DNA of 64,000 nt, from positions 186,001 to 250,000 of the forward strand of contig NZ_CP101154.1 in the NCBI RefSeq assembly GCF_024298905.1, read 5' to 3'. The stretch comes from Natronomonas marina (GTDB lineage Archaea > Halobacteriota > Halobacteria > Halobacteriales > Haloarculaceae). The position numbers were made by a program, and so were the translations under genes. Numbering within the stretch: position 1 is the stretch's first letter; each line of letters starts with the position of its first letter. The notes beneath the pieces were generated by a model. It ran no database searches. It saw only the letters and a program-made list of their open reading frames with translations, and was not told the DNA's origin. Of this stretch, positions 40,245-50,116 are shown piece by piece.

Positions 40245-41888
40245 GTGAGCGACGACGCCCAGAAGGCGGCCGCCTCCCGCTACGCCGACGACGATTGTGT
40301 CGTTCAGAACGATGGACTGCGAGGCGCCGTCGACGACTGGCGGGTCGGCGACCTCGACACCAGCGTCCTGCGGGACGTCGTCGATTACTGGCGAACCGGC
40401 GCGACCGTCTTCGAGAACCCGCCAGCAGCGCCCGGGTCCGCGGACGCCACGGGCAACGCCGACTTCGTCGAGGTCTCCTGGGCCGAGGTCGACGCCGCCA
40501 CGTCCTACGACCTCTACTGGTCGACCAGCCAGGACGTCTCCCCCGACACCGGGACCCGCATCGCCGACGTCGGGACGCCCTTCGCCCACGCCGGCGTCGA
40601 GACCGGCACGACCTACTACTACGTCGTCACGGCCCGCAACTGCGCCGGCGAGAGCGGCGCCTCCCCGACCGCCGAGGGGACCGTCCCCGAGCCGCCGACC
40701 CTCGAACCGGACGAACCCGAGGGCACGACACAGACCACCGTCGCCGACAGAGCGGAGGCGCTGTACACCGGCGACGATCCGGTGCAGACGGGCGTCGAGG
40801 CCGGCGCCATCGACCCCGGTCGCGTCGCCATCGTCAGCGGCACCGTCACCGACCGCGAGGGGGACCCGGTCGGCAACGCGACGGTCCGGGTGTCGGGCCG
40901 TCCGGAACTGGGACGGACGCTGTCCCGGGCCGACGGCACGTTCGACATGGCCGTCAACGGGGGAGGCACGGTGATATTCCGGTTCGAGCGGACCGGCTTC
41001 CTCCCGCTCCAGCGGCAGATCCCGGTCGGTTCGAACGCCCACCGGAAGGGGACGGCCGTCTCGCTCCTCCGGGAGACGGCCGAGAGCACGACCGTCGAGA
41101 CGGACAGCGACGACGGACAGGTGGCGACCAGCCAGCCGGTCTCGGACGGCGACGGCGACCGGCAGGCGGCGGTGTTCGTCCCGCCGAACACGTCGGCGAT
41201 GGACACCGACGACGGCACCGCCCCCGAGGAACTGGAGATTCGGGCGACCGAGTACACCGTCGGCGAGAACGGACCCGAGGCGATGCCCGACGAGTTGCCG
41301 AACCGGGTCGGCTACACGTACGCGGTGGAGTTGACGGCCCGGAATCCCGACAGCAGCGACGGCTCCACGAGCAGTCAGACCGCCTTCATCGATACCGAAT
41401 CGCGCGGCGACGTCGAGTTCGACCAGCCGGTCTACGAGTACGAGCGCAACTTCCTCGACTTCCCGGTCGGCCAGCGGGTACCGATGGGCTTCTACGACGA
41501 GGACGCCGCCGCCTGGGAGGGCGGCGACGACGGCCGCATCATCGAGATCCTCGACACCAGCGGCGGGAGCGCCTCCATCGACGTCGACGGCAGCGGCGAT
41601 CCCGCCGACCAGTCACAGCTCGACGAGCTGGGGGTGACCGACGAGGAACTGGCGATGCTCGCTACCCAGTACGAGGCCGGCGACCAGCTGTGGCGGACGC
41701 CGGTGCCGCACTTCTCGCCGTGGGACTGCAACTGGCCGTTCAACCCCCCTGCGGATTCCGTGCCGCCGCTACCCGACTTCGAGATCGAGGACGTGAACAT
41801 CGACGACGGTACGACGCCGCCCGAACCACCGAGCACGCCGGAGGAACCGCCCGAAGAGGACGAAGAGGACGACGACTGTCCGAAATAA
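40245..41888 (+). CDS. RHS/teneurin-type N-terminal half: dockerin-like, FN3 and carboxypeptidase-regulatory domains
   Basis: The 547-residue protein, read from a GTG, has several modules. Residues about 15-52 resemble the haloarchaeal dockerin-like module (GLRGAVDDWRVGDLD, DVVDYWRTG). FN3 occupies about 60-147 (TTYYYVVTARNCAG), and a carboxypeptidase-regulatory-like fold about 195-265 (VSGTVTDREGDPVGNATVRV, SRADGTFDMAVNGGG). A long region then ends PVPHFSPWDCNWPFNPP, followed by an acidic proline-rich tail. Bacterial RHS giants carry this same N-terminal block fused to the RHS core. No signal peptide is visible at the annotated start. The RHS core gene begins 5 bp after its stop. Confidence 0.82.
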   Translation: MSDDAQKAAASRYADDDCVVQNDGLRGAVDDWRVGDLDTSVLRDVVDYWRTGATVFENPPAAPGSADATGNADFVEVSWAEVDAATSYDLYWSTSQDVSPDTGTRIADVGTPFAHAGVETGTTYYYVVTARNCAGESGASPTAEGTVPEPPTLEPDEPEGTTQTTVADRAEALYTGDDPVQTGVEAGAIDPGRVAIVSGTVTDREGDPVGNATVRVSGRPELGRTLSRADGTFDMAVNGGGTVIFRFERTGFLPLQRQIPVGSNAHRKGTAVSLLRETAESTTVETDSDDGQVATSQPVSDGDGDRQAAVFVPPNTSAMDTDDGTAPEELEIRATEYTVGENGPEAMPDELPNRVGYTYAVELTARNPDSSDGSTSSQTAFIDTESRGDVEFDQPVYEYERNFLDFPVGQRVPMGFYDEDAAAWEGGDDGRIIEILDTSGGSASIDVDGSGDPADQSQLDELGVTDEELAMLATQYEAGDQLWRTPVPHFSPWDCNWPFNPPADSVPPLPDFEIEDVNIDDGTTPPEPPSTPEEPPEEDEEDDDCPK

Positions 41889-41893
41889 CACTC

Positions 41894-44800
41894 ATGCCAA
41901 CGATAGACGCAGCCATCAATCTCGAATCCCGGACGTCGACCGCATCGGTGCCGATCCCCGGCACGGATCTCACGCTCAACTACTTCAGCGACCGCGTCCG
42001 CGGCACGTCGACGAACCCGAGCCGGTCGGTGTCCGTCCCGCTGACCGGGAGCAACCCGCCGGATTCGCTGAAGCGGGTCGACCTCACCATCGAGGTCGCA
42101 GGCCAGAGAAACGAGTTCGAGTTCTCCCCCGACCCCGACCGGACGGAGAGTTTCACCTGGGACGGCCGCGACGGCTTCGGGAACCGCGTCCAGGGACCGC
42201 ACACCGCCACCATCGAGATCACGTACGTCTACGACGGGGTGTATTCGGAACCGGACGTGGACCGTGGCAGCGCGTTCAACAACCGCCCCGGAGTCGAGAT
42301 CACCGGGAGCGAGGCCCGAGAGGAGCTCTACTTCACGACGGACTACGAGGTCGATCTACAGTACTTCGACGCCGCACGGACGGGGCTCGGCGGCTGGTGG
42401 CTCTCGCCACACCACGTCCGAAACCGGAACCGGTCGTCGTTCTCGTTGCTGCAGGGCGACGGGACCGACCGGACGATAAAGGAGGACAGCCTCCGCGAGG
42501 TCGACCAGGTCCCGGCCGGCCGGTTCGACATCCTCGATACGGACGAGTACTTCGCGACCAGCGCCGTCGCGCCCGACGGGAGCCTGACCGTGACGCTGAC
42601 CGGCGTCGACTACGGCTCGGGAGCCGACAGCGACGAGATAGCCGCCGTCAGGGTGTACGACCTCCCGTCCGACGGGTTCGAACAGTTGCTGGCGAGCGAC
42701 GGTGATTCCATCGACGTGGTCGGAACCCTGATCGCCGACGAGGGCTCGCTCGGCGCCGATGGATACGTCTTCGACGTCGCCTACGGGTCGGAGGGCCGGC
42801 TCTACCTCGCGGAGCTCGTCGGGGGCATGGACCCGATATTCGACTCGGATTCCACGAACGACGGGCGCGTTCGGCGGATATCGGAGGACGGGAGCACGGT
42901 GACGACGCTCGCGGGGACGACCGACGGGCAGCACCCGACCGACGAGTACGGCAGCTTCGGCGACTGGATCGCGGACGTCGAGGGGAGCCTCGCGACCGAC
43001 GTCCCGCTCCCGGCCATCACCAGCGTCGTCGTCGGGAGCGACGGCGACACCTACCTGAAGCTCGGGCCGATGAACGACGAGTGGGGCGGCGGTGTCGTGC
43101 GGCTCAGCCCCGACGGTCGCCTGTACCGGGCGTACTCGTTCGACCTCGTCGGCGGCGACACGTTCGACGGGATACCGGTCCTCCGGGACACCATCGCGGT
43201 CGGTCCGTCGGGCGACCTCTACGTCGGCGAACCCGGACGGATCGTCCGCATCGACAGTCAGGGGAACGTCCGGGTTCTCGCGGGGTCCGGGTCGGGGTTC
43301 GAGCAGGTCAGACAGTCCGACGACTCCGAACACCTCCTCGCGGCCAAGGAGGCGAAGATCGGGACGGTCCTCGGCCTCCACGTCGACGAGACCGGGACGG
43401 TCTACTTCATGGACCGGGCGGCCGACGCGGATAGCTCCTCGGACCGCGAGGATCTCGTCAGGAAGTTCGATCCCGGAGGGCTCGTGACCCGGATCATGGG
43501 CACTGGCGACCGGCCGATCAGGAGCGACACCACCTACAGGGGCGCCCCGGCGGACACCGCGTACCGCTTCTTCGGACAGTGGCCGCTTCTCTGGACCGAC
43601 GCCGGGGACATCCACTTCATGGCGCGCGAGAGGGCGACCGACGGGAGCGTCTTCGCTCGCCTCCGCCAGGCGTTCGACATCGACCGGATCCCCTCACGCG
43701 ACGGGTCGAAACTGTACGAGTTCGTGGACGGCCGCCACGCCCGCACGGTCGACACGCTGACGGGGACGACGCTGTACGAGTTCGCCTACGACGACGCCGG
43801 CCGCCTCACGAGCGTCACCGACCGCAACGGCTCTGTCGTCCAGGTCGAGCGCGACGCCGACGGCGCGCCGACGGCCATCGTCGCGCCGACGGGCCAGCGC
43901 CTCGAACTCGCTCTCACCGACGGCTACGTCACCGGTATCACCCGGCCCGACGACCGGCAACTCGGCTTTACGTACACCGGCGGCGGCCTCCTCGAGCGGA
44001 TCACCCACCCCGGAGGCGACGAGACGACCTTCCAGTACGACGGCTCGGGTCGCGTCACCGGGCGCACCCGTCCGACCGGCGGACAGGACGACCTGGTCCA
44101 GCAGGCCATCGAGAACGGCCGCCGGCTCACCCACCTCACGCCCGAGATGCGCGAGACCACGGTCGACGTCGAGCGGACCGCGGCGGGCCGCCGGATAACG
44201 ACCCAGTGCTGTAACACGGCCGGGACCGAGACGCTCATCTCGCCGGACGGCGAGTGGACCACGACCTACCCCGACGGCGCCTCGAAGACGACCCGGTCCG
44301 GCCTCGACCCCCGCTTCGGCGGCCGCTCACCGTTGCCCGCGTCGGTCACCTACACCTCGCCGGGCGGGACGACGACCACGACGGAGTTTTCCCGGTCGGT
44401 GACGCTGTCCGACGAGACCGACCCCCTCAGCCTCACCGCCTTCAGCGAGACGTCGACCGTCAACGGTCGAAGCTACGAACGTTCCTACGACCCGGGCGCC
44501 GGGGAGTGGACCGTCACCACCCCCGGGGGCCGGACGATGACCGTCGGCCTGGACGCCGGCCGCACGAGCACCGTCTCCCCGACCGGTACGGACGGCCTCT
44601 CGATGAGTTACGACGCCGACGGGCGCGTCACCGGGGTCGGCCGGACGGGGAACGAACTCGCACTCGAGTACGACGGCGGGGGGAACCTGTCGGCGGTGAC
44701 GGACGCCGAGGGCCGCCGCAGCGAGATGACCCTCTCGGACGGCGAGTACCCCGAGTCGTTCACCTCGCCGCTCGGCAACACCACCGCGTTCAGCTACGAC

Positions 44801-46729
44801 GCCGACGGCTATCTGTCGTCGATGACGCGGCCGAACGGCGAGACGCACGACTACGAGTTCGACGCCGCCGGCCACATGACCGGCTACACGCCGCCGGAGG
44901 GCGGCAGTCGGACGATCTCCCACGACGCCGACGGGTTCCCGACCGAGGTGGCGCTGCCGAGCGGTCGCACGATCACCAACGAGTTCGACGCCTCGACCCG
45001 GCTCCAGCAGGCGAGCCATCCCGACGCCACCGTCACCTACCAGCGGGACGAACTCAAGCGGCTCACGGGGTTGACGCGCTCGCCGGCCGACGGCAGCACC
45101 GACCAGTCGCTGTCGATAACGCGGGACGGCAAGGTGACGACCGAACTCGCGTTCTCCGGGCCGGCCTCGGGCACGTTCCAGTACGCCCACGACGCCGACG
45201 GGCAGGTGAGCCAGATCACCCACCCGAACGGATCGACGCGGGCGCTGTCCCGCGACGACGACGGTCTGCTGACCGGCGAGGGCCCCTTCACCGTCGAGCG
45301 GAACGGCCTGATGGGCCGGCCGTCCCGCATCTCGGACTTCACGGGCGTGGTCGAGTACACCTACGACCAGCAGGGCCGCGTCGCCTCCCGGAGTCACACC
45401 GTCGATGGCACCGAGTTCTACAGCGTCGAGTACACCTACGACCAGAGCGACCTGCTCGTCGAACGCACCGAGACGCTCCCGAACGGCCAGCGGGCCGAGG
45501 CGTTCACCTACGACGCCGACGGGCGCCTGACCGAAGTCCAGCGGGACGGCAGCGTCGTCGAGTCCTACGCCTACGACGAGAACGGCAACCGCACCGAGCG
45601 GACCGTCGACGGCACCACCGAGCAGGCCAGTTACGACCCCGGCGACCGCCTGGTCGAACAGGGGTCGCGCACCTACGGCTACGATGCCGACGGCCACGTC
45701 ACCGACCGCAACGGCGACACGCTCGATTACAGCGCCACCGGCGAGTTGCTCTCGGCGACGCTGTCTGGCGGCAGCAGCGTCGAGTACACCTCCGACGGCT
45801 ACGGCCGACGCGTCGCCCGGACCGCTCCCGACGGAACGACGACCGAGTACCTCTACGGCGACCCGAACGCCCCGACGCGCGTGACGGCCGTCCGGGAATC
45901 GGGCGAGTGGACCCACTACTACTACGACCTCGACGGCCGCCTCTACGCATTCGAGCGCGGCGGCTCGTGGTACTACGTCGCCACCGACCAGGTCGGCACT
46001 CCGCGGGTGGTGGTCGACTCCAGTGGTAGCGTGGTCCGGGAGATCGACCGCGACGCCTACGGGGCGGTGCGGTCGGATTCGGACCCCGCGTTCCCGCTCC
46101 ACGTCGGGTTCGCGGGCGGCATCCCCGACCCCGAGACGGGACTCGTCCGGTTCGGGATGCGCGATTACGATCCCGAGACTGGCCGGTGGCTCGCGCGCGA
46201 CCCGATGCTACTGGCCGGCGGACAGTTCAACTTCTACAGTTACGTCGAGAACGACCCGGTCAACGCCGTCGACCCGACGGGGCTGTCCTGGGACTGCTTC
46301 ATCGAGAAGATGCTGGAGAACTTCGACAAGACGGAGGAGTACACCGACCTCATCGGGAAGATACTGGACGAACTCGGCGTGGACACCGGGGCGGATCTGA
46401 AGCTGAAGGAACTCTTCAAGGCGGGGCTCGAGAACTATCTCGAGGAACTCGCCAAGGGGAAGGCCAAGAAGGCGGCGGCGAAGGCAGCCGGCAAGAGCCT
46501 GCTCAAGAGCGCCTCCCGCGGTGGCCTCTACAACCTCGCGCTGTACGGCGGGATGCTGGTCGGGTCGGGCATCTACGCCGGCATCGACCAGTACTTCGGG
46601 CAGGGGCCGGGCGAGGCGCTCTTCGAGTTGATCAACGGTCCGAACGAGTCGCTCTCGCCGTGTGAGGCCAGAGAGCGCGGCCTCATCGACGAGGACTGCC
46701 CGGAGAAGGCGCTGGAGGACTGCTGTTGA
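41894..46729 (+). CDS. RHS/YD-repeat giant protein with NHL-like region and C-terminal tip domain
   Basis: The 1611-residue protein begins with the RHS-type N-plug (GTDLTLNYFSDRVRG, residues about 19-33). An NHL/beta-propeller-like region lies at about 280-540, with phrases such as GRLYLAEL, RRISEDGSTVTTLAGT and VYFMDRAAD. A long YD-repeat shell follows at about 610-1420 (YDADGRVTGV, FSYDADGYLSSM and similar). The core closes with RDPMLLAGGQFNFYSYVEND and NAVDPTGL near 1430-1464. The RHS self-cleavage aspartates seem kept, but DPxG in the first motif is DPML. The last 147 residues form an unassigned tip with an alanine/lysine-rich helix, a hydrophobic hairpin and four cysteines. Confidence 0.9.
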   Translation: MPTIDAAINLESRTSTASVPIPGTDLTLNYFSDRVRGTSTNPSRSVSVPLTGSNPPDSLKRVDLTIEVAGQRNEFEFSPDPDRTESFTWDGRDGFGNRVQGPHTATIEITYVYDGVYSEPDVDRGSAFNNRPGVEITGSEAREELYFTTDYEVDLQYFDAARTGLGGWWLSPHHVRNRNRSSFSLLQGDGTDRTIKEDSLREVDQVPAGRFDILDTDEYFATSAVAPDGSLTVTLTGVDYGSGADSDEIAAVRVYDLPSDGFEQLLASDGDSIDVVGTLIADEGSLGADGYVFDVAYGSEGRLYLAELVGGMDPIFDSDSTNDGRVRRISEDGSTVTTLAGTTDGQHPTDEYGSFGDWIADVEGSLATDVPLPAITSVVVGSDGDTYLKLGPMNDEWGGGVVRLSPDGRLYRAYSFDLVGGDTFDGIPVLRDTIAVGPSGDLYVGEPGRIVRIDSQGNVRVLAGSGSGFEQVRQSDDSEHLLAAKEAKIGTVLGLHVDETGTVYFMDRAADADSSSDREDLVRKFDPGGLVTRIMGTGDRPIRSDTTYRGAPADTAYRFFGQWPLLWTDAGDIHFMARERATDGSVFARLRQAFDIDRIPSRDGSKLYEFVDGRHARTVDTLTGTTLYEFAYDDAGRLTSVTDRNGSVVQVERDADGAPTAIVAPTGQRLELALTDGYVTGITRPDDRQLGFTYTGGGLLERITHPGGDETTFQYDGSGRVTGRTRPTGGQDDLVQQAIENGRRLTHLTPEMRETTVDVERTAAGRRITTQCCNTAGTETLISPDGEWTTTYPDGASKTTRSGLDPRFGGRSPLPASVTYTSPGGTTTTTEFSRSVTLSDETDPLSLTAFSETSTVNGRSYERSYDPGAGEWTVTTPGGRTMTVGLDAGRTSTVSPTGTDGLSMSYDADGRVTGVGRTGNELALEYDGGGNLSAVTDAEGRRSEMTLSDGEYPESFTSPLGNTTAFSYDADGYLSSMTRPNGETHDYEFDAAGHMTGYTPPEGGSRTISHDADGFPTEVALPSGRTITNEFDASTRLQQASHPDATVTYQRDELKRLTGLTRSPADGSTDQSLSITRDGKVTTELAFSGPASGTFQYAHDADGQVSQITHPNGSTRALSRDDDGLLTGEGPFTVERNGLMGRPSRISDFTGVVEYTYDQQGRVASRSHTVDGTEFYSVEYTYDQSDLLVERTETLPNGQRAEAFTYDADGRLTEVQRDGSVVESYAYDENGNRTERTVDGTTEQASYDPGDRLVEQGSRTYGYDADGHVTDRNGDTLDYSATGELLSATLSGGSSVEYTSDGYGRRVARTAPDGTTTEYLYGDPNAPTRVTAVRESGEWTHYYYDLDGRLYAFERGGSWYYVATDQVGTPRVVVDSSGSVVREIDRDAYGAVRSDSDPAFPLHVGFAGGIPDPETGLVRFGMRDYDPETGRWLARDPMLLAGGQFNFYSYVENDPVNAVDPTGLSWDCFIEKMLENFDKTEEYTDLIGKILDELGVDTGADLKLKELFKAGLENYLEELAKGKAKKAAAKAAGKSLLKSASRGGLYNLALYGGMLVGSGIYAGIDQYFGQGPGEALFELINGPNESLSPCEARERGLIDEDCPEKALEDCC

Positions 46730-46759: not shown

Positions 46760-47383
46760 CTACCGTCTCGCCCGGGTACGAACCAGGCCGGCGTATCGGT
46801 CCGTCGCCTCGCGCACTCTCGTCCGGTCCTCGCCCGAGACGCCGACGAACGCGACGATACCGGGGAGTCGCTCGAAGTGGAGCACGTCGAACCCCTCCTC
46901 GGACGCCGTCTCCCACCGGACCGTGCCGTCGTCCCCGCGCCGGGCGGTCTCGGCGCCTGCCGGCGACTGCGCCCGGACCCACGCCCCGGCCGCGTCGGTG
47001 ACGCCCGCCAGTCCCCGGTCGGGGTAGGCGGCGCTCTCGACGGTTCCCGGCCCGTCGGCGGTCGACTTCGCCACGAACCCCGAAGCGACGCCGTCGCCGG
47101 GCACGAACCCCTCGACGGCGGAGGCGACGTGCCGGGATAGCGGCGCGGCCGTCGTCTCGATGGACCACTCGACGTACGATTCCGGTTCGGCGAGGTCCGA
47201 GCGACGGAGCAGGACGGTCTCGACGTCTGCTGCGTCGCTTCCGTCGCCGGTCGCCGCCGCCGTCCCGGGGACTCCGGTGACGCTGGCCGCCGCCGAGGAG
47301 GCGAGTACCGCCCGTCGTGAGACGGCCGGAAGCCCCGGGTCGATGCCGTCGGTGTCCGGATCGGCTGGTTCTTCCCCACCCAT
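46760..47383 (-). CDS. Exported protein with twin-arginine signal, unknown function
   Basis: The 207-residue protein has an acidic N-terminus, then VSRRAVLASSAAASVTGV (about residues 21-38), which is a twin-arginine-like signal with a hydrophobic core and AAATGD after it. The mature part is soluble and beta-rich (VEWSIETTAAPLSRHVASA, VRWETASEEGFDVLHFERLP). No catalytic motif is recognised. It is on the strand opposite the RHS gene, with the two stops 30 bp apart, so it is not arranged like a typical RHS immunity gene. Confidence 0.75.
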   Translation of the reverse strand: MGGEEPADPDTDGIDPGLPAVSRRAVLASSAAASVTGVPGTAAATGDGSDAADVETVLLRRSDLAEPESYVEWSIETTAAPLSRHVASAVEGFVPGDGVASGFVAKSTADGPGTVESAAYPDRGLAGVTDAAGAWVRAQSPAGAETARRGDDGTVRWETASEEGFDVLHFERLPGIVAFVGVSGEDRTRVREATDRYAGLVRTRARR

Positions 47384-47490
47384 GACAGTGCCTGTCGTCG
47401 CTCCAGGGCAATAAAACCGGGTGCGGAGCGGACCGAGCGCCGCTGGCGGCCGAAGCGAGGGCTTAGGAGGATGGCGCCCGAACCCGCGCC

Positions 47491-47721
47491 ATGGCCGAAG
47501 ACGAGGGCTTCGACGAGCCACCGGACGGGCTGATAACCGTCAGGGGTGCCATCGGCGGCGTCGCCCTGCTGTGGCTGGCCGCGATGGCCGGCTTCGGGGC
47601 GTTGCAGGCGTCGATTTACGCGGTCAGGGCCGCACCGGTTTACGCCGCCGTCGCCGTCGCCGCCGCCGCGCTCTCGATCGCGGCCGGCTACGGTTCGTTA
47701 CGGTCGTTCGGTCTCCGGTGA
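47491..47721 (+). CDS. Small two-helix membrane protein, 76 residues
   Basis: The 76-residue product has hydrophobic segments GAIGGVALLWLAAMAGFGAL and VYAAVAVAAAALSIAAGYG. A CTTAG box lies about 29 nt before the ATG. It is divergent from the exported protein and converges on a Usp gene with no gap (47721/47722). Function unknown. Confidence 0.65.
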   Translation: MAEDEGFDEPPDGLITVRGAIGGVALLWLAAMAGFGALQASIYAVRAAPVYAAVAVAAAALSIAAGYGSLRSFGLR

Positions 47722-48962: not shown

Positions 48963-50116
48963 GTGATTAGCGGATCTTATTGAGGAATCCACTGAGGTGA
49001 TTGTCAATCCACGATGCAGCGAAGCTCAGTTGCTCGGTCAGTTCTTCGAACAGATCGTCAAGGAGTGTTCGGTACTCGTCTTCATCTTCGACAATCAGCG
49101 GTGATGACTCCCACTTGAGACTTTTCCAGACTGGCTCGATTGGATTGAGATGCGGCGATCCAACCGGAAGGAATACGAGATCAATTCCTAGTTCGTGGGC
49201 ACGCTTGCGAGTGTACTTGCAAATGTGAGATGAGAAGTTATCTAAAACGAGCAGAATCCGGGTACGCGGATTCTGCTCGCGGATCGTCTCGAAGCACTCA
49301 CAGATCTGTTCTTTCTCCTGGTTCGGCGGAAACGACAGTACACTCTCACCGTTGAGTGCATAGAACCCGGCCGCTGGTGTGTCGATTTTCACCAGCGGCC
49401 GGGTGATGTGTGGGTCATCAACTGTGTACATCCGCTGAGAATTGTCCCACGGCTGTGGATGTGACAGGTCGAAAAACCCGATGACTGTGCCACCATCTGT
49501 TCGAATATCCTCGTCACGGTCCCAGTCTTCGTCGTCTTGATCTTTCTCTCGTTTGTTGTGAGGCTGATCGTCGGCATCCTCGTCGAACGCGTACTCGACG
49601 CGTTCGTCGAGAATCCCTTCGGCGTCGTCTGGTCGATCAGGACGTTTCGTCCGTGGAATAGCGTACGAGAGGCCGAGGTTGTCCAGAAACGTCGGTAGAT
49701 AGTGTGGATGATACTCGATATTGAATTCCTCGTTGAGGAGATGCTGAATCTCCTGTTTTTTCCAGGGCTGGCCCTCACGGAGTCGCTCGATCAGTCGCTG
49801 CTGTTCGGCCTCGCCGAGCTTCGGGGGCCTGCCGCCCCCGAAGTTCGGCGTGAGTTTGCCCAGTCCTCCTTCATTCCAGCGTTCGACCCAGTTGTCAGCT
49901 GTCCCCTCTGATCGCCCAACGTCATCAGCGGCTTCAGCGAGCGTCGCTCCCTTGTATAGCCGTTTGATGAACACGAGCCGTTCGTGTTGCTTCACGTCGT
50001 CAGTTTCCGTGAGCAGTCTATCCAGGTCTTCCTCGCTCAGGTGGCGTACAACTTCTTTCTCACGGCCAGTCATTACATCGAAAAGACGGTTTTCCTCAAT
50101 AACTTCCCCGAATGAC
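48963..50116 (-). mobile_element. IS630-family insertion sequence with TA duplication
   Basis: The element lies between TA at 48961-48962 and TA at 50117-50118, the target duplication of IS630/Tc1 transposition. Imperfect terminal inverted repeats are visible: the left end ends TTATTGAGGA and the right end reads TCCTCAATAA in reverse sense. It carries one transposase gene. GC content is visibly lower than in the surroundings. With the element removed, the flanks form a perfect palindrome with TA at its centre. Confidence 0.9.
48967..50073 (-). CDS. IS630-family transposase
   Basis: The 368-residue transposase has an N-terminal helix-turn-helix (GATLAEAADDVGRSEGTADNW) and a DDE catalytic domain. 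The likely DDE residues lie in IGFFDLSH, LLVLDNFSSHICKY and SPHLNPIEPVWKSLK. It is a full-length intact frame, so the element may still be active. Codon use has a lower GC3 than neighbours, a sign of recent transfer. Confidence 0.93.
   Translation of the reverse strand: MTGREKEVVRHLSEEDLDRLLTETDDVKQHERLVFIKRLYKGATLAEAADDVGRSEGTADNWVERWNEGGLGKLTPNFGGGRPPKLGEAEQQRLIERLREGQPWKKQEIQHLLNEEFNIEYHPHYLPTFLDNLGLSYAIPRTKRPDRPDDAEGILDERVEYAFDEDADDQPHNKREKDQDDEDWDRDEDIRTDGGTVIGFFDLSHPQPWDNSQRMYTVDDPHITRPLVKIDTPAAGFYALNGESVLSFPPNQEKEQICECFETIREQNPRTRILLVLDNFSSHICKYTRKRAHELGIDLVFLPVGSPHLNPIEPVWKSLKWESSPLIVEDEDEYRTLLDDLFEELTEQLSFAASWIDNHLSGFLNKIR

Follow-up and report, generated by a model that had tools for sequence, protein, structure and literature searches.

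An archaeal teneurin-like protein encoded by two adjacent genes, with a break at the position aligned with the bacterial autocleavage site

A teneurin-like protein laid out as two genes

The window analysed here is a stretch of 64,000 nucleotides from Natronomonas marina (contig NZ_CP101154.1, positions 186,001 to 250,000), and coordinates refer to this window unless another locus is named. It encodes a teneurin-like protein (TLP) in two genes. Gene 1 (40245-41888, forward strand) begins with GTG and specifies 547 amino acids, the last of them EDDDCPK. Gene 2 (41894-46729, forward strand) begins with ATG and specifies 1611 amino acids in the -1 frame. The break between them (41886-41896) consists of the TAA of gene 1, the five nucleotides CACTC and the ATG of gene 2, just as an earlier note on this DNA, made from the sequence alone, had read it. 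At third codon positions, GC reaches 0.91 in gene 1 and 0.92 in gene 2; the phase of high GC switches at about 41850-41900, that is, at the break. It is thus reasonable to conclude that both frames are real coding sequence.

The solved structures closest to both products are 9ifo and 9pt5, deposited as "Teneurin-like protein". Residues 159-511 of gene 1 were matched by phmmer to residues 367-708 of this protein (9ifo; E 6e-76), and residues 13-1469 of gene 2 were aligned with residues 731-2147 of the same chain (9pt5; E 7e-198). Since they match successive parts of one solved chain, the two products represent consecutive parts of one bacterial-type TLP, which bears out the proposal of the earlier note that a teneurin/RHS-type protein is split here. 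The published definition of TLPs is a superfold and not one continuous gene (PMC13018210). Because the same study uses this superfold to find TLPs, the locus is treated as a TLP variant even though a single continuous gene is absent. FN-plug, NHL and YD-shell, the constituents of the superfold, occur in TLP order and all reside on gene 2; the upstream part with TTR and WDCNWP resides on gene 1. The window locus is therefore an archaeal teneurin-like protein encoded by two adjacent genes.

Within gene 1, an FN3-like region (residues 70-144; 40452-40676) is followed by a teneurin TTR-like domain (TTR_TEN1-4, PF25020, E 1e-17; residues 191-264; 40815-41036) and by a stretch that matches bacterial TLPs 5' of the FN-plug and carries WDCNWP at its end (41037-41738). 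The latter lies where PMC13018210 puts the TIP domain, a label borrowed from that paper. The gene is closed by an acidic proline-rich tail (41739-41885), in which Cys545 (41877-41879) corresponds to C719 of BiTLP, the TLP of Bacillus inaquosorum. Gene 2 comprises the FN-plug (residues 13-115; 41930-42238), aligned with 9pt5 from residue 731, an NHL-like propeller (about residues 200-590; 42491-43663) and the YD-shell (residues 597-1464; 43682-46285; PF25023, E 4e-58), in addition to RHS repeats detected by Pfam. FN-plug (0.0095) and NHL are weak in Pfam searches and clear in the full-length alignment to 9pt5; in the second species described below, TEN_NHL is matched at 7e-8. Most of the domain assignments made previously were thus recovered, plug and NHL clearly by alignment; for FN3, Pfam gives only a weak match below the cut-off (0.009).

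Residues 590-1611 of gene 2 were modelled with AlphaFold from a 32-sequence alignment; the model has a mean pLDDT of 81, and its best structural match is 9ifo (rmsd 1.4, TMq 0.83); the C-terminal domain is modelled as low-confidence helices. Residues R1423, D1436 and D1460 of the RHS aspartyl protease, which performs C-terminal autocleavage (46160-46273), are invariant across the 32 aligned sequences, with spacing equal to that of R2103, D2116 and D2140 in BiTLP. The protease motif PxxxxDPxG is present as PVNAVDPTG.

Downstream of the shell lies a C-terminal domain of 147 amino acids (residues 1465-1611; 46286-46726) with a hydrophobic segment at residues 1546-1564 and the end EDCC. Its length is within the bacterial range (80-220, many of 143-147). 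Cysteines are found 1, 2, 10 and 22 residues from the end, and 1 and 9 residues from the end in the second species; among bacterial C-terminal domains, 29 of 40 have a cysteine in the last 30 residues. BiTLP has a hydrophobic C-terminal domain, which permeabilises membranes solely upon export (PMC13018210). A similar membrane action of the window domain is a guess by analogy.

A comparison with 146 genomes of the family revealed a homologue of gene 1 in one other genome only (E 1e-100), that of another species of the same genus (G117). The plug region, searched at family level in 135 genomes with a 200-aa piece as query, occurs in the same two genomes. In the G117 locus (L026), gene 1 ends in EPEDPDPC and the core reading frame starts 2 bp (GTG) or 11 bp (ATG) after its stop, again in the -1 frame. 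The proteins of the two species are 48-49% identical in the conserved portion of gene 1 and 39% identical in gene 2. The two-gene TLP is thus real and conserved in haloarchaea, in two species. The earlier note had offered a two-component protein or gene fission as readings and had recommended a look at other haloarchaeal genomes; the only other copy found is split in the identical way and not fused.

No further archaeal TLP was detected in overlapping samples of 391 class, 392 order and 393 phylum genomes, in which G117 was not drawn; weak matches in these samples are generic carboxypeptidase-regulatory domains. Scanning contigs of 84,980 species yielded 79 bacterial loci (L028-L106), and no stop interrupts the frame between WDCNW and the plug in any of the 78 that are readable at the junction. 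The statement in the earlier note that bacterial counterparts are one continuous chain is in agreement with this. Motifs used in the scan are those of gene 1, and split bacterial forms would not have escaped it on that account. In unrooted phylogenetic trees the two haloarchaeal copies form a clade (SH-aLRT 95 for gene 1 and 100 for gene 2), which fits one fission.

The gene break and bacterial autocleavage

The chain of BiTLP is broken in a loop of the FN-plug deep inside the shell, and N-terminal sequencing placed this break at G723/S724; C719 forms a disulfide with C2216 of the C-terminal toxin domain (PMC13018210). The local sequence at the cut is DDDCNKEG/SIIGALAQ, the slash marking the scissile bond. 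Residue 13 of gene 2 aligns with residue 731, and ungapped extension together with a 56-row alignment makes A6 in the window and V9 in G117 the equivalents of S724. Gene 2 starts 5-8 residues ahead of this position. Gene 1 stops two residues after the equivalent of C719 in the window (DDDCPK, then stop) and immediately after it in G117 (DPDPC, then stop). As judged from these alignments, the haloarchaeal gene break coincides with the bacterial scissile bond to within a few residues. The earlier note recognised the split and missed this match, as well as the linked gene 3 described below.

A G-[S/C]-[IV] motif is present in 76 of the 78 bacterial junctions, nearly always with a cysteine 1-6 residues upstream. 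The residue after the scissile glycine is serine in 53 and cysteine in 23 of these 76, suggesting self-cleavage of an acyl-shift type with either nucleophile. Both haloarchaeal copies lack G-[S/C], having D5-A6 (window) and S8-V9 (G117) at the equivalent positions, and both retain the terminal cysteine of gene 1. Loss of the motif with preservation of the cysteine is expected if gene structure now makes the cut. The two cuts differ in this respect: at the N-terminal one the motif is lost, at the C-terminal one the protease residues are kept. N-terminal autoproteolysis appears to have given way to gene fission. As only two archaeal copies are known, it is position, and not repeated independent events, that connects fission functionally with cleavage.

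On balance we favour, as probable, the following explanation: the locus encodes an archaeal RHS-type teneurin-like polymorphic toxin as two polypeptides, fission at the autocleavage site replaces self-cleavage, and the two chains assemble into the cut particle. Gene 1 would be the display half, with its acidic tail threading into the shell. Gene 2 would supply plug, NHL propeller and YD-shell together with the 147-aa C-terminal cargo, which the retained aspartyl-protease site would release inside the shell. The two chains would thereby form the cut particle at which bacteria arrive by autoproteolysis, and as fission makes N-terminal self-cleavage unnecessary, its motif was lost. The terminal cysteine of gene 1 and the C-terminal cysteine of gene 2 probably provide the equivalent of the C719-C2216 disulfide, by which the cargo would be tied to the display half. 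Among the points against this explanation, the linker would tolerate a break for other reasons too, and G117 has DRSG instead of DPxG as its second protease motif.

The first of these leads to the main rival, according to which fission occurred at a permissive unstructured linker, the chains still assemble and the location at the cleavage site is a coincidence. The bacterial acidic proline-rich linker indeed varies in sequence and in length (26-65 residues). In both species, however, the break does not lie just anywhere but no more than about 8 residues away from the scissile bond as mapped, and the G-[S/C] motif was lost along with it while the upstream cysteine was kept, which leaves this account unlikely. 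Still less probable is that the products act separately, gene 1 as an adhesin-like protein and gene 2 as a shell retained inside the cell. No signal peptide was recognised by sequence inspection in gene 2 of either species or in gene 1 of the window, as this account would have it; against it, the genes still lie side by side with 2-11 bp between them, and each has retained its side of the plug, gene 1 the WDCNWP tail and gene 2 the plug itself.

A programmed -1 frameshift yielding a fused protein, also raised in the earlier note, is very improbable. Gene 2 is in the -1 frame in both species, and sequences of slippery form are available (CCCCCCT at 41744 in the window, TTTCCCA in G117), but these candidate sites differ between the species in place and sequence. 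The gene 2 frame ahead of its ATG is arginine-rich and not protein-like in either species; the -1 product of the window would resemble no bacterial linker, and in G117 stops interrupt the frame, one of them between the candidate site and gene 2. Gene 2 has, moreover, its own ATG or GTG beside the stop. Equally slight is the chance of a pseudogene or a sequencing error in a single gene broken by frameshift, as two open frames side by side and a window gene 1 without signal peptide might suggest: the identical break in a second species, whose two proteins are 48% and 39% identical to those of the window, leads us to reject sequencing error, both long reading frames are intact with 91-92% GC at third codon positions, and the bacterial GSII-type residues are absent from every frame.

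Gene 3 and export

A third gene (gene 3; 46760-47521, reverse strand) converges on gene 2, from which it is separated by 30 bp in the window and 25 bp in G117. Its homologue in G117 (L026 7043-7663, forward strand) has 29% identity (E 1e-15), and both proteins begin with twin-arginine signal-like N-termini. Among the 146 family genomes, gene 3 was found only in the two that possess the gene 1-gene 2 pair, and 390 further genomes of the class gave nothing beyond signal-peptide or marginal matches. Genes 1-3 alone are common to the window and G117 loci; as no other gene is shared, they form a module. An open reading frame resembling an IS630-type transposase by eye (48967-50073, reverse strand) lies 2.2 kb past this module and may bear on its movement.

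Gene 3 has no match to a Pfam family and no plasmid match. Its AlphaFold model is of moderate quality (pLDDT 68) and shows only non-significant resemblances to PsbP, TiME and LpqN (E at least 0.012), and searches with PADLOC for defence systems gave no match for genes 1-3. Gene 3 is probably a dedicated exported partner of the pair. By analogy with bacterial TLP operons (PMC13018210), immunity is the likeliest role and gene 3 a candidate for it. Its convergent orientation speaks against this reading, as bacterial immunity genes are located downstream in the operon, and it counts likewise against the favoured explanation as a whole.

Neither gene 2 carries a signal peptide, and none is visible in gene 1 of the window. 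An upstream N-terminus overlooked in the window was considered and rejected: TAG 36 bp before the GTG closes the frame, and there is no other start or signal-like stretch. Residues 11-57 of gene 1 (40275-40415) form the module that the earlier note had called dockerin-like. This is a real repeated module of the genome, with 8 other copies; the dockerin label itself finds no Pfam match. In the other copies the 45-aa module (GLRxAVDDWRxGDIDTxLLRDVVDYWRTG) occupies the extreme C-terminus of the protein (L008, L011, L014, L017, L020, L023, L024, L025). In gene 1, unlike these, it is N-terminal, suggesting recombination or 5' truncation. Without a visible signal peptide, and with its start in a module that is usually C-terminal, the window copy may be 5'-truncated or exported in an unusual way; this, too, weighs against the favoured explanation.

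In gene 1 of G117, a Thr/Pro stalk follows the Tat-lipobox-like stretch TSRRAVPAAATALATVVAGCSG. The frame of this gene (L026 12569-14650, reverse strand) continues for about 130 codons upstream of this stretch in protein-like sequence. Haloarchaeal lipobox proteins are described in PMC2945643, and according to PMC4273604 Tat can export preassembled complexes with the signal on one partner, so a folded, loaded shell could leave with gene 1. We tentatively propose, as a possible and rather unlikely extension, that the pre-cut teneurin is put together in the cytoplasm and leaves the cell in folded form. Gene 1 would provide the export and anchoring signal (of Tat-lipobox type in G117), gene 2 with the loaded shell would be a Tat "hitchhiker", an interchain disulfide would tie the cargo to the surface half outside, and exported gene 3 would shield the producer from outside.

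Comparison with known systems

The break in this conserved two-gene TLP of haloarchaea lies at a position that published biochemistry accounts for. A structural survey of bacterial TLPs from 2026 mentions no archaeal member, the word "archaea" being absent from its main text (PMC13018210). In the archaeal form, the gene appears to have been divided during evolution at the site of the former self-cleavage. What N-terminal cleavage does, a poorly understood matter, thereby becomes testable, since the cut is always made, before folding and without a catalytic motif, and the two chains provide a clean system in which to study the entry of the tail into the shell and the function of the probable disulfide.

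Bacterial TLPs such as BiTLP (9ifo/9pt5, PMC13018210) share with the haloarchaeal form the order TTR, WDCNWP, FN-plug, NHL, YD-shell and short C-terminal domain, as well as the protease residues, the terminal cysteine pair and the shell fold. The haloarchaeal form differs in being encoded by two genes, in the absence of G-[S/C] and in its archaeal host; in place of the downstream immunity gene of bacteria, its locus has the convergent Tat-type gene 3. The T6SS Rhs effectors Tse5, RhsP and RhsA (PMC10684867) resemble it in the YD cage, in the cleaved N-terminal fragment held inside by a plug and in the cleaved C-terminal toxin. They are, on the other hand, encoded by one gene and cut by protein chemistry, have other N-terminal domains and match the shell model with TMq of 0.45-0.61, as against 0.83 for 9ifo.

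The BC cage of Tc (ABC) toxins is an RHS cage made of two polypeptides, with the break within the shell. The haloarchaeal form, likewise of two polypeptides, is broken ahead of plug and shell, and its TMq to Tc BC cages is at most 0.45. Teneurins, known in animals as nerve-cell proteins, are thought to have descended from bacterial toxins. Animal teneurins 1-4 have the same superfold (TMq 0.77-0.79) but are single-chain membrane receptors, without a C-terminal cleavage motif and with the C-terminal domain outside the shell (PMC13018210).
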